DNA of 40,260 bases, taken from Devosia sp. (GTDB lineage: Bacteria > Pseudomonadota > Alphaproteobacteria > Rhizobiales > Devosiaceae). Position numbers and translations under genes: made by a program. The notes below the pieces were generated by a model. It was given only the letters and a program-made list of their open reading frames with translations. It was not told where the DNA came from and did no database searches. The stretch's first letter is position 1. Each line of letters begins with the position of its first letter. The stretch spans positions 1-40,260 of the forward strand of contig JAHCJW010000013.1 in the NCBI GenBank assembly GCA_026126125.1. The letters run 5' to 3'. Below are positions 1,017 through 33,067 of this stretch, piece after piece.

Positions 1017-2681
1017 TCAGGCAGCAATGTCGAATGCGGCGCGGACCAGCCGGGCCGTATATTCGGATTTGGGGTTGATGAGCACTTCATTGACCGGCCC
1101 CTGCTCCACGATTTTGCCGTGCTGCATGACCATCACCCTGTGGCACAGGGCCCGCACCACCTTGAGGTCGTGCGAAATGAAGAGATAGGAGAGGCCCTTC
1201 TCATCCTGCAGCTTGCGCAAAAGGTCGATGATCTGGGCCTGAACGGATAGGTCGAGCGCCGAAGTCGGCTCATCGAGCAGGATGAATTCGGGCTCGAGCG
1301 CGATGGCCCGGGCAATGGCGATGCGCTGGCGCTGCCCGCCCGAGAATTCATGCGGAAAGCGGTTGAGAATGGTGTCCGGCATGCCCGCGTCGCGCAGCGC
1401 CTGCCGCACGCGCTCGGTCCGCTCCCGCCCATTGGTGCCGATGCCATTGACGATCAGCCCCTCGGCGATGATCTGCCCGATGGACATGCGCGGATTGAGG
1501 CTGGCGAACGGGTCCTGGAAGACGATCTGCATCCTCGAGCGCAGCGGTCGCATCCCCTTGCGATCCTTGTCGTGGATCGGCTCGCCATCGAAGAAAATCT
1601 GCCCGCCCTGATTGCCGATCAGCCGGATCAGCGCCTGCCCGAACGTGGTCTTGCCCGAGCCGCTTTCTCCGACAATACCCAGCGTTTCATGGCGCATCAG
1701 CTTGATGTCGAGATCGTCGACGGCCTTGAGATCGAAAAAGTCCGGCTTGAAGAACCCGCCGCGCTTGAGCGTATAGGTCACCTTGACGTTCTTGCCTTCG
1801 AGCACGGTGTCGTGCGCGCCCTCCTCCAGCGGCAGCGCCGTGCCCTTCGGCTCGGAGGCCAGAAGATGCCTGGTATAGGGATGCTGGGGATTGGCAAAGA
1901 GCGCCTCGGTCGCATTGTGCTCCTGCACACGTCCGTTCTGCATCACATACACATAGTCGGAAAACTGCCGGACAATGGTGAGATCGTGGGTGATCAGGAT
2001 CACCGCCATGCCGTATTTGTCCTTGAGATCCTTGATCAGGTTGAGGATCTGCGCCTGCACCGTCACATCGAGCGCGGTGGTCGGCTCGTCGGCGATGAGC
2101 ACGTCGGGGCGGTTGGCCAGCGCCATGGCGATCATCACGCGCTGACGCTGCCCGCCCGAGAGCTGATGCGGATATTGCCGCAAGCGCGCCGCCGGGTCGG
2201 GGATCTGCACCTCCTCGAGCAGCTTCTCCGCCCTCGCCATGGCTTGGCTGCGCGACACCCGATTGTGCAGGTGAATGATCTCGCAGATCTGTTGGCCGAT
2301 CGTATAGACCGGGTTAAGCGAACTCATCGGCTCCTGGAAGATCATGGCGAGGTCGTTGCCGCGCAGCTTGCGCATCTGCTTGTCGCTCATCGCCACCACG
2401 TCCTTGCCGGACAGGGTGATGCGCGTATCCTTGCCGATGCTCGCCCGCTTGGTGAGCAGTTTCATCAGCGTGCGCGCCGTCACCGACTTGCCCGAGCCGC
2501 TTTCGCCGACGAGAGCGATGGTCTCGCCCTTGTGCAATTGGAACGACACATTGCGCACCGCATGGACGACGCCGCCCTCGACCTTGAAATCCACCGCCAC
2601 ATTGCGCGCGTCGAGGATCAGGTCGCGGCCATGCTGTCCGAGATCGAGGCGTTCGGGGGGAGCGAAATTGCTCTGTCTCAT
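1017..2681 (-). CDS. Fused dual ATP-binding subunit of a peptide/alpha-galactoside ABC transporter (DppD-DppF type)
   Basis: Both nucleotide-binding domains of a type I importer lie on one 554-residue chain, powering the two permeases encoded upstream. The N-terminal half has Walker A GESGSGKS (about 59-66), signature LSGGQRQRV and Walker B IADEPTTALD. A linker with the oligopeptide-type HPY motif (NPQHPYTRHLL) follows. The second half has GESGSGKT, FSGGQRQRI and LLDEPTSALD. ATG at 2681 is chosen because GAGGTG lies 9 bases upstream and the gene then begins 10 bases after the permease stop; an in-frame extension to 2744 would run into that permease gene. Fused DppD/DppF ATPases are common in Hyphomicrobiales. 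Sugar specificity is inferred only from the neighbouring GH4 gene. Confidence 0.93.
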   Translation of the reverse strand: MRQSNFAPPERLDLGQHGRDLILDARNVAVDFKVEGGVVHAVRNVSFQLHKGETIALVGESGSGKSVTARTLMKLLTKRASIGKDTRITLSGKDVVAMSDKQMRKLRGNDLAMIFQEPMSSLNPVYTIGQQICEIIHLHNRVSRSQAMARAEKLLEEVQIPDPAARLRQYPHQLSGGQRQRVMIAMALANRPDVLIADEPTTALDVTVQAQILNLIKDLKDKYGMAVILITHDLTIVRQFSDYVYVMQNGRVQEHNATEALFANPQHPYTRHLLASEPKGTALPLEEGAHDTVLEGKNVKVTYTLKRGGFFKPDFFDLKAVDDLDIKLMRHETLGIVGESGSGKTTFGQALIRLIGNQGGQIFFDGEPIHDKDRKGMRPLRSRMQIVFQDPFASLNPRMSIGQIIAEGLIVNGIGTNGRERTERVRQALRDAGMPDTILNRFPHEFSGGQRQRIAIARAIALEPEFILLDEPTSALDLSVQAQIIDLLRKLQDEKGLSYLFISHDLKVVRALCHRVMVMQHGKIVEQGPVNEVLINPKSEYTARLVRAAFDIAA

Positions 2682-30378: not shown

Positions 30379-30447
30379 CGGCAGGCGCCCCACTCCCGCC
30401 GCAGCGGCAAATCACCTATATGAGGGTGCAAAGCCAGCGAGTTGCCC

Positions 30448-31779
30448 GTGACCGAATTTTTCCGCATCGACCGCCCTTCCTTCGACCCCGCGACCGGCGA
30501 GGTCCGCTTTGCCTACGGGCTGGGCGATCTCGGCTTTACCGAAATCCTGACCCTGCCCCAGGGCGCCGACCCGGCCGCCGCCCAATCGCCGGCCTTTGCC
30601 AAACTGCTCGATCTCACCGCCTTTGTGCTCGGGGTCAGCTATTTCAAGCTGCGGGCGCCATTTCGCATCGAGGCGCCGGCGATCGCGCTGAGCGAAGCCG
30701 AACGTGTCTTCGTCACCGATGTCTATGAAAACGGACTGGGCGAGTTCTACGCCCGCAACAATCTGGCGCGGTTCGGGCGGCTGACCCTTGAGACCCCGCT
30801 TGATGCCGAGGCGCGCAAAGCCGCGCCGACGCTGCCGCAGCGCACGCTGCTGCCCATTGGCGGGGGCAAGGATTCGCTGGTCAGCGTCGATCTTTTGAGC
30901 CATGTCGGGGTCGAGTTCACCCCCTTCGCCGTCAATCCCAAGGGGCCGATCGTCACCTCGGTGGAAGCCATCGGCAAGGCGCCGCTCTATGTGACGCGTA
31001 CGCTCGATCCGGAGATGATCCGGCTGGGCAAGGAGCCGGGCTATTATAACGGCCATGTGCCATCGACGGCGATCAATTCAATGATCGCGGCGCTTTGCGC
31101 TGTGTTGTTCGGCTATGACCAGATCGTCTTGTCCAACGAGCGCTCGGCCAGCGAGGGCAATGTGGTGTTCGACGGGCGCGAGACCAATCACCAATATTCC
31201 AAATCGCTCGGCTTCGAATTGCTGATCGCCGGCATTCTCGCCGACGCGACCGGCGGCGCCTTGCGTTATTTCTCGCTGCTGCGGCCCTATTCGGAGGCGC
31301 GCATCGCCTCGCTGTTCACGCAGGGCGGGCGCTTCGACCGTGTCTTTTCCAGCTGCAACCGCAATTTCCGCCTCAACGGCAATGACGGCCCGCTCTGGTG
31401 CGGGGAATGCCCCAAATGCCACTTCGTGTTTCTGATCTTCGCCCCGTTCATGGCCAAGGAGCGACTATTGTCGATCTTCGGCAAAAACCTGCTCGACACG
31501 CTGGAAAACGAGCGCTCCTTCCGCGAACTGGCGGGGCTCGCCGGGCAGAAGCCCTGGGAATGCGTGGGAGAAATCCTCGAAGCGGCGGCCTGTTTCTATA
31601 CGCTCACCCGCCATGCCGATTGGCATGAGGACGCGGTGGTGCGGGCGATCAAACCCGATCTTTTCGCCCAATATGGCGAGGAAAAACTGCAATTGGCCAT
31701 GGCCGAATGCCTGACCGACAGCCATGACCACCATATCCCCCCCGCCCTCGCCGCAAAGGTCGCTGCCTATGCGGTTTGA
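30448..31779 (+). CDS. murL: MurL-type UDP-MurNAc-L-Ala-L-Glu epimerase
   Basis: Predicted ATP-dependent enzyme of 443 residues that inverts the terminal L-Glu of UDP-MurNAc-L-Ala-L-Glu to D-Glu, as described for MurL of Xanthomonas oryzae. The PP-loop LPIGGGKDSLVS (GGGKDS about 138-143) matches the adenylating pyrophosphatase fold. A Cys cluster CGECPKCHF (Cys318, 321, 324) and NERSASEGN are further conserved-looking motifs. GTG at 30448 is chosen because GAG lies 7-9 bases upstream; TTG at 30442 is the alternative. It overlaps the murD2-type gene by 11 bases, and that pairing is the main support for the assignment. Recognition is from memory, without alignment. Confidence 0.82.
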   Translation: MTEFFRIDRPSFDPATGEVRFAYGLGDLGFTEILTLPQGADPAAAQSPAFAKLLDLTAFVLGVSYFKLRAPFRIEAPAIALSEAERVFVTDVYENGLGEFYARNNLARFGRLTLETPLDAEARKAAPTLPQRTLLPIGGGKDSLVSVDLLSHVGVEFTPFAVNPKGPIVTSVEAIGKAPLYVTRTLDPEMIRLGKEPGYYNGHVPSTAINSMIAALCAVLFGYDQIVLSNERSASEGNVVFDGRETNHQYSKSLGFELLIAGILADATGGALRYFSLLRPYSEARIASLFTQGGRFDRVFSSCNRNFRLNGNDGPLWCGECPKCHFVFLIFAPFMAKERLLSIFGKNLLDTLENERSFRELAGLAGQKPWECVGEILEAAACFYTLTRHADWHEDAVVRAIKPDLFAQYGEEKLQLAMAECLTDSHDHHIPPALAAKVAAYAV

Positions 31780-33067
31780 GGCGCCTGTGCTGCTTTATGG
31801 CGCGGGGCGCGAAGCGCTCTCGACGCGGCAGTTTTTGCAGGCCGTGGCGCCCCAGGTGAAGGTTTATGTCACCGTCGACAGCGGCAGCGCCGATCTGCCC
31901 GATACCGAAGCCATCGCGCCGGACGAGCTGCCGGCGGCCTTTGCTGCGCATCGCATCGGGCTGATCGTCAAGAGCCCGGGCGTGTCGCGCTACAAGCCGG
32001 TCTTCGCGCAGGCGGCCGAGGCGGGTATTGCCGTCACCTCCAATCTCAACCTCTGGGGCCAGGCCTATCGCGCCGGCCGCACCGTCATCGCCATTACCGG
32101 CACCAAGGGCAAATCCACCACGGCGACGCTGACGCAATTGATGCTGGCCCATTCCGGCGTCGACGCGGGTCTTGCCGGCAATGTCGGCCTCGCGCCGCTC
32201 GACATCGCCGACCGGCACCGGGTCGTGGTGCTGGAGCTGTCGAGCTACCAGACCGCCGATATCGATTTCCTGCCCGATGTGGCGGCGATCACCAATCTTT
32301 ATCCCGAACATGTCGACTGGCACGGCTCGGTCGAACGCTATTATGCCGACAAGCTGAACCTGGTGAATCGGGACGGCAATCTGGCCGTGGCGCTGGGCGC
32401 GGCGGCGCGCGGCAACGTGCGCGTGGCCAAGGCCGTGCGCGACCATCGCCGGCTCCTCGGCGATCTCAATGCCGAGCAGCAGGCGCGCATCGAAGCCGCC
32501 GTGGCCCCTTCGCGGCTGCGCGGCGCGCATAATCTCGACAATGCCCTGCTGGCAGCGCAGATCGCGCTCTCAGCCGGGGGGACGATGGAGGGTGTCGTCC
32601 AGGGCATCGCCGCCTTCAGCCCGCTGCCCCACCGGCTCGAAGAACATGTGTTCGGCGGCGTGACCATTGTCGATGATTCGATCTCGACGACGCCCGAGGC
32701 CACTAAGGCGGCGCTGGCCGCCTATCCGGGGCGGCGCATCGCGCTTCTCGCCGGCGGGCATGAGCGCGAGCAGGATTATACCGAACTGGCGGGGCTCCTC
32801 GCCCCGCGCGGCGTGACGACGCTGGTCACCCTGCCGGTCACCGGCGAACGGCTGGCCCGCGCCACGCGCGCCGCTGCGGCCGAAATCAGCCTGTTCGAGG
32901 CACCCGACCTCGACGCGGCGCTGGACTGGCTCACCACCCAGGCGGCGCGCTTCGACACCGTCATCCTCTCGCCCGGCGCGCCCTCCTATAATCAGTTCAA
33001 GAATTTCGAGGCGCGTGGCGAGCGCTTCGTCGCCCTCTGCCGCGCCGCCTTTGCCGAAACGGCGTGA
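31769..33067 (+). CDS. murD2: MurD2-type UDP-MurNAc-L-Ala:L-glutamate ligase
   Basis: Mur-ligase family protein of 432 residues that would add L-Glu to UDP-MurNAc-L-Ala using ATP, the substrate-forming step for MurL. P-loop AITGTKGKSTTAT (about 108-120), then ELSSYQTADI and NLYPEHVDWHGS are classic MurD/MurC-family blocks. The third domain has LLAGGHEREQDY and ends SPGAPSYNQFKNFEARG. ATG at 31769 overlaps the murL stop. It is away from any division-and-cell-wall gene cluster, so a standard murD should exist elsewhere. The L-Glu preference is inferred from the pairing; the protein alone could also be an ordinary MurD. Confidence 0.85.
   Translation: MRFEAPVLLYGAGREALSTRQFLQAVAPQVKVYVTVDSGSADLPDTEAIAPDELPAAFAAHRIGLIVKSPGVSRYKPVFAQAAEAGIAVTSNLNLWGQAYRAGRTVIAITGTKGKSTTATLTQLMLAHSGVDAGLAGNVGLAPLDIADRHRVVVLELSSYQTADIDFLPDVAAITNLYPEHVDWHGSVERYYADKLNLVNRDGNLAVALGAAARGNVRVAKAVRDHRRLLGDLNAEQQARIEAAVAPSRLRGAHNLDNALLAAQIALSAGGTMEGVVQGIAAFSPLPHRLEEHVFGGVTIVDDSISTTPEATKAALAAYPGRRIALLAGGHEREQDYTELAGLLAPRGVTTLVTLPVTGERLARATRAAAAEISLFEAPDLDAALDWLTTQAARFDTVILSPGAPSYNQFKNFEARGERFVALCRAAFAETA

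Follow-up and report, generated by a model that had tools for sequence, protein, structure and literature searches.

A MurL-MurD2 gene pair as the probable route to peptidoglycan D-glutamate in a Devosia genome

Bacterial peptidoglycan normally contains D-glutamate, and the supply of this residue is a drug target. In a stretch of 40,260 nucleotides from Devosia sp. (the whole of which we call the window), two overlapping genes raise the question of whether this bacterium obtains the residue by a bypass, in which L-Glu would be put into the cell-wall building block first, by the ligase MurD2, and would then be flipped to the D form by MurL, with MurE continuing as usual after the MurL step. We find it very probable (about 0.93) that the pair forms this MurL-MurD2 route, its enzymology being predicted from sequence, and within an assembly that is 91% complete the bypass probably works alone. 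The genes and the block upstream of them are as follows.

30448..31779, + strand: murL; matches the family model NF041275 and is 84-90% identical to its counterparts in three Devosia loci (L028-L030); start set by comparison of loci.
31769..33067, + strand: murD2, a MurD-type ligase and predicted user of L-Glu (272 bits against TIGR01087; E180/R333/I305).
31769..31779, + strand: overlap of murL and murD2, 11 bases, common to 8 of 11 Devosiaceae-type loci.
30408..30421, + strand: CAAATCACCTATAT, 14 bases long, upstream of murL, with no difference between the window and seven Devosia loci.

Both frames and their 11-base overlap, described in the original prediction, were confirmed at these coordinates. 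The murL frame encodes 445 amino acids from the mechanical start, TTG 30442, and 443 from GTG 30448. At the position of the latter, five of the seven Devosia loci have GTG and two (L033 and L034) have TTG, and in these last two no start codon stands at the position matching 30442; GTG 30448, the start already proposed, is therefore the better one. The murD2 frame encodes 432 amino acids from ATG 31769 to the stop at 33067; a further in-frame ATG lies upstream at 31724, where the frame is also open. The overlap recurs in eight of the 11 Devosiaceae-type loci (L028-L038), and in the other three (L030, L035 and L036) the mechanical start lies elsewhere. Since both proteins are conserved in the seven Devosia loci (L028-L034; 81-90% identity for MurL, 71-76% for MurD2), the gene pair is not due to chance. 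We infer that murL and murD2 form a two-gene operon and are co-transcribed. The block CAAATCACCTATAT may serve as a promoter or as a regulatory element; within the window, the 16-mer that encloses it has a single occurrence at up to three mismatches, with 0.10 expected.

MurL matched the NCBIfam model NF041275 (MurL) with E 8.8e-118 and 393.6 bits, below the cut-off of 700, over residues 5-442 of 445 and profile positions 8-445 of 447. This is an equivalog model named for Xanthomonadales: proteins of Rhodanobacter (781 bits) and Dyella (778.9) score above its cut-off, a metagenome-assembled genome (MAG) labelled Xanthomonas falls just under it (699.8), and those of two Actinomycetota, Solirubrobacter (404.8) and Mycolicibacterium (326.4), and of another Devosia (388.9) lie far below. 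We thus take the cut-off to delimit the Xanthomonadales equivalog and not the wider MurL family. The genome holds one MurL copy. Even with the threshold at E 1, the window MurL had no Pfam family; a PDB sequence search with this single protein returned photosystem subunits (E 0.0093 and 0.98), which we took as chance matches.

When named genomes were scanned with an alignment of MurLs, 582 loci were confirmed, of which the best 80 were kept ("named loci" below). Forty-seven of these, hand-picked, were aligned with the window protein (n=48), and two motifs stand out, with residues counted from TTG 30442.

30859..30876, + strand: MurL PP-loop motif GGGKDS, residues 140-145.
31399..31419, + strand: MurL CxxCxKC motif (C320, C323, K325, C326), a possible metal site.

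The core GGKDS is invariant (48/48), extended to GGGKDS in 47 proteins and to SGGKDS in the remaining one, which backs the earlier assignment of MurL to the PP-loop type at the level of the motif. C320, C323, K325 and C326 are present in all 48, as is C305, and the four invariant cysteines may bind a metal. The profile of the 48 MurLs matched TtuA, a PP-loop tRNA-thiolation enzyme, with E 2.1e-4 in the loop region only. Against MurL, hhalign gave a probability of 65% for E. coli TtcA, at the same place (the GGGKDS region), 36% for QueC and 2.5% for NadE, with 0.1% for the negative control, E. coli MurD. One of the 48 proteins matched Pfam PAPS_reduct (2.7e-4); other PP-loop Pfam models were matched by single MurLs, only at 0.09-0.23. 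MurL thus has the GGxDS motif and the preceding strand in common with the PP-loop ATP pyrophosphatases (TtuA, TtcA, QueC, NadE), but the likeness does not extend beyond the surroundings of the motif, and it is weak with QueC and very weak with NadE. The fold of this superfamily, HUP/adenine alpha hydrolase, may be that of MurL as well.

PP-loop enzymes convert ATP to AMP and pyrophosphate, typically via adenylation of a substrate. MurL is likewise reported to use ATP and produce AMP, and to have no known conserved domains (accessible text of PMC8788868 and of PMC5808125), so that the PP-loop reading fits the published chemistry. In the mechanism proposed in PMC8788868, as given in its accessible text, the alpha-carboxylate is adenylated, the residue epimerised and the adenylate hydrolysed; a PP-loop site agrees with the adenylation step. 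MurL of the window would accordingly spend ATP to AMP while turning the terminal L-Glu into D-Glu, adenylating the alpha-carboxylate of Glu in its PP-loop site before epimerisation and hydrolysis. A literature search found no paper that brings together PP-loop, epimerase and peptidoglycan, most subscription papers lying outside its scope.

With 272 bits, the ligase scores above the cut-off (211.95) of the canonical MurD model TIGR01087. This match would also suit a rival explanation, in which the ligase is an ordinary MurD that adds D-Glu and whose gene has left the dcw cluster, a racemase encoded on another contig (C228) makes D-Glu, and the MurL-like protein has some other function. Alignment to E. 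coli MurD (K-12 b0088) located three residues bearing on stereospecificity, all of which are visible in the PDB alignment too.

32306..32308, + strand: MurD2 Glu180, equivalent to E. coli Asp182 and, per PMC8788868 (accessible text), to X. oryzae MurD2 Glu197.
32681..32683, + strand: MurD2 Ile305, equivalent to E. coli Lys319.
32765..32767, + strand: MurD2 Arg333, equivalent to E. coli Lys348 and, per the same text, to X. oryzae MurD2 Arg358.

The ligase thus belongs to the same family as E. coli MurD over nearly its whole length, but has E180/R333/I305 where the latter has D182/K348/K319, and its gene lies outside the dcw cluster. According to the accessible text of PMC8788868, changing both Glu197 and Arg358 switches X. 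oryzae MurD2 to D-Glu, and the K319T variant of E. coli MurD accepts L-Glu; the same text reports that with D182E/K348R E. coli MurD still does not accept L-Glu, and that Arg likewise occupies the second position in the MurD of Streptococcus mutans, which is a D-Glu enzyme. Because of these last two observations the residues are indicators and not proof. With E/R/I, the window MurD2 is predicted to side with the L-Glu enzymes at each of the three positions, and not with the D/K/K of an ordinary MurD.

Two sets were compared, the named loci and 385 genomes drawn evenly from the class to which the window belongs (the class sample), the latter searched with a single MurL query and with the glutamate racemase (murI) model TIGR00067 at E 0.001. 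Canonical MurDs, taken from 12 hand-picked genomes of the 125 murI-bearing alphaproteobacterial ones and from one further genome (G086), were D/K/K in 13/13. MurDs neighbouring MurL, from the named loci and the class sample combined, were E/R with Ile or Leu in 74/86. Among the MurDs adjoining MurL in the class sample E/R/I was found in 12/12, and it was the signature of the best MurD in 14 of the 16 class-sample genomes with MurL other than the window's (L124-L138 without L136); of the remaining two, G086 has D/K/K and G050, in pieces, was left out. In the 80 named loci (best 80 of 582), 74 MurDs were found and scored: 62 have E/R with I or L, four have Glu first with the later columns not all covered, and eight have no Glu at the first position (seven Asp, one Cys). 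Arg is missing from the second position in 2 of the 69 covered, and none of the 70 covered has Lys at the third. E/R/hydrophobic versus D/K/K thus offers a three-residue marker, imperfect as an indicator, for telling MurD2 from MurD; such a marker is of use since the canonical MurD model lets MurD2 through.

The arrangement of the genes likewise argues against an ordinary MurD whose neighbour has some other function. In 71/80 of the named loci (best 80 of 582) MurD is the downstream neighbour of MurL, on the same strand; in two it is fused to MurL, and in one (L067) it lies upstream. No MurD was found in the other six; the loci L066, L071 and L080 end near MurL, and L064, L077 and L104 do not. 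The distribution of murI points the same way, as in the class sample 17 genomes have MurL, 125 have murI and none has both (hypergeometric P 0.001, kinship ignored). The threshold of E 0.001 lets in partial racemase-like matches; with the family cut-off (81/385 genomes) the chance of zero overlap with MurL is 0.016, kinship again ignored. The 17 genomes include the window's own and G086, which carries a distant homologue. In this sample 243 of the 385 genomes match neither the window MurL nor TIGR00067 at E 0.001, and their source of D-Glu may escape both queries. Among the genomes of the named loci (best 80 of 582), murI scores above cut-off in 0/37 and 1/43 of two sets, the single case being a Patescibacteria MAG (G423, locus L083). 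Matches at E 0.001 or better, including that one, occur in 15/37 and 8/43 and are mostly partial, the strongest below cut-off reaching 74 bits (G418, locus L067) and 65 bits (G462, locus L099).

The standard route was then sought in the window's genome (3.91 Mb, 302 contigs, 91.09% complete, 0.56% contaminated). The search for murI with TIGR00067 gave no match at E 0.001 in this 91% complete assembly; on control genomes the same model found a match in 10/14, eight of them above cut-off (146.65). The sole MurD above cut-off is the window ligase, and the four weaker matches to the MurD model, all on contig C236, are murC, murF and murE (two matches). The dcw cluster is contiguous on this contig, which is not that of the window, and reads, from translations, lpxC, ftsZ, ftsA, ftsQ, ddl, murC, murG, ftsW, mraY, murF, murE, ftsI, mraW. 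In E. coli murD sits between mraY and ftsW; on C236 no canonical murD lies there, the gap of 156 bases being too small for one. Close relatives agree. In five Devosia-type genomes (G385, G386, G387, G390 and G394) the matches listed include one MurD above cut-off each, which adjoins MurL (5/5), and in three of them MurD2 lies on the same contig as, and far from, a match whose profile range corresponds to murC: about 251 kb in G386, 186 kb in G387 and 143 kb in G394. These distances, and the separate contig in the window's genome, bear out the earlier remark that the pair stands away from the usual cell-wall cluster. In 11 Devosiaceae-type genomes (G385-G395) none has murI above cut-off, and seven have weak partial matches. 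As a separate observation, murB is not between murC and ddl on C236 (L011 7180-7345) and is located on contig C157 (18364-19320); murB and the murC-like match are on separate contigs in G385, G386, G387 and G390 and close together in G394.

Two genes might be sources of D-Glu. The first is the gene on which the rival explanation draws.

1483..2169 of locus L001, contig C228: aspartate/glutamate-racemase-type gene (TIGR00035 191 bits, cut-off 93.1).

Against NF007569 this protein scores 261 bits (cut-off 417). Scanned alone against TIGR00067 it gives 24.8 bits (cut-off 146.65), a match absent from the genome-wide result; such a search can therefore miss weak relatives. The gene might be a minor source of D-Glu or D-Asp. 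The second is the one match to the D-amino-acid-aminotransferase model, at 106.5 bits and below the cut-off of 277.45; in the controls this model found a match in 12/14 genomes, one above cut-off. Neither passes the family test for a source of D-Glu, though either may be a minor one. Given the residues, the gene order and the separation of murI from MurL, an ordinary relocated MurD supplied by the C228 racemase is a very improbable explanation. That both routes run, with murI and a canonical murD in the unassembled part of a 91% complete assembly of 302 contigs, we regard as slightly less probable still, since the dcw cluster is assembled across the place of murD with none there, the 11 Devosiaceae-type genomes are without murI above cut-off (the weak partial matches in seven notwithstanding), and a second MurD above cut-off appears in 0/5 Devosia-type genomes among the matches listed.

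The MurL-MurD2 reading proposed for the pair is thus backed by sequence, by gene order, by the residues of the ligase that bear on stereospecificity, and by the fact that neither murI nor a canonical murD was found. The prediction had allowed that the bypass works alone or alongside the standard route; the first part is favoured by the search of this genome, with which other Devosia genomes agree, and the second is not. Because murI and a canonical murD were not found, the bypass is apparently the sole route here.

Among the named loci (best 80 of 582), identity to the window MurL is highest in Devosia: 89% for Devosia sp. N26CT and 84% for both D. soli and D. faecipullorum, followed by further members of the genus. 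The window MurL falls inside the Devosia clade, with starred support, in a quick tree built from 60 rows. The neighbours of this clade in the tree sample are two Alteromonadaceae and not other Alphaproteobacteria; because this join is unstarred (support 92), we make no claim of lateral acquisition of the pair. Distances between MurLs and between MurD2s correlate (r 0.91 over 45 rows, 0.56 after removal of close pairs), which weakly suggests shared descent. L012 and L052, rows of different sets, do not differ in sequence (tree distance 0).

Beyond the genera listed in the accessible text of PMC8788868, MurL was found (best 80 of 582) in Patescibacteria-type MAGs, Microbacteriaceae, Solirubrobacter, Mycolicibacterium frederiksbergense, Alteromonadaceae and others. 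Eight Patescibacteria-type MurLs (L081, L083, L087, L094, L098, L104, L105 and L107, bins as labelled) form one branch with an unstarred support of 94. Two of these loci, L094 1836-4445 (a Falkowbacteria MAG) and L107 3480-6071 (a Staskawiczbacteria MAG), have single frames of 870 and 864 amino acids that match both MurL and MurD and are apparent natural fusions. In M. frederiksbergense (L102) MurL stands beside a MurD with the signature D/R/L, and its genome (G412) gave no murI match and, among the matches listed, no other MurD above cut-off. A distant MurL-like protein in G086 (L027 796-2235; 32% identity over 281 aligned positions) carries GGGKDS and WCKRCPKC; no MurD was found in its 3.5-kb locus, and G086 as a whole gave no murI match and encodes a canonical MurD (D/K/K). 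A 2018 review mentions, in its accessible text, low-similarity MurL orthologues in a fungus, cyanobacteria and an amoeba (PMC5808125). We lean, with clearly less assurance than for the pair itself, to a broader view, in which MurL would be a PP-loop adenylating epimerase and the bypass a widespread alternative and not the specialty of a few genera, reaching a separate Patescibacteria branch (some members fused), Microbacteriaceae, Solirubrobacter and a Mycolicibacterium, replacing murI in nearly every carrier genome, with Devosia as a lineage where the classical step is fully displaced.

Devosia, Pelagibacterium and Parvularcula are named as Alphaproteobacteria with MurD2/MurL by Ogasawara and Dairi (2021, PMC8788868, accessible text), so that the finding is already known at the level of the genus. 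The same text states that these bacteria have no D-Glu-forming gene. These pairs resemble that of the window in genus (the nearest named relatives), in gene content and in the want of a D-Glu gene, a comparison made by genus name. The assays described there concern Xanthomonas, Micromonospora and Salinispora and, in the accessible text, none concerns Alphaproteobacteria; in the accessible literature on the pathway we found no assay of a Devosia pair. A search by titles and the beginnings of abstracts, with most subscription papers outside its scope, found no paper on the pathway beyond the reviews PMC8788868 and PMC5808125; the phrase 'glycopeptidyl-glutamate epimerase' turned up a single time in one other paper. 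The X. oryzae pair (XOO_1319/XOO_1320), known to us by description, and that of the window are alike in the MurL family match, the two neighbouring genes and the lack of a murI match, and the ligases have the same Glu and Arg switch residues (those of X. oryzae per PMC8788868, accessible text). They differ in that the window MurL is about 37-43% identical to Xanthomonadales MurL and lies below the Xanthomonadales equivalog cut-off. The reactions themselves have been established biochemically by others for X. oryzae, and by analogy we infer that the Devosia pair would carry out the same ones.

What is added here is a test of this particular genome at the level of residues and of the whole genome, and the pair appears as an unremarkable though well-supported instance of a bypass already known. 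In Devosia-type Alphaproteobacteria this L-Glu-first bypass probably operates by itself. Its wider spread, if true, would mean that more bacteria are open to a pathway-specific inhibitor than the accessible text of PMC8788868 states.
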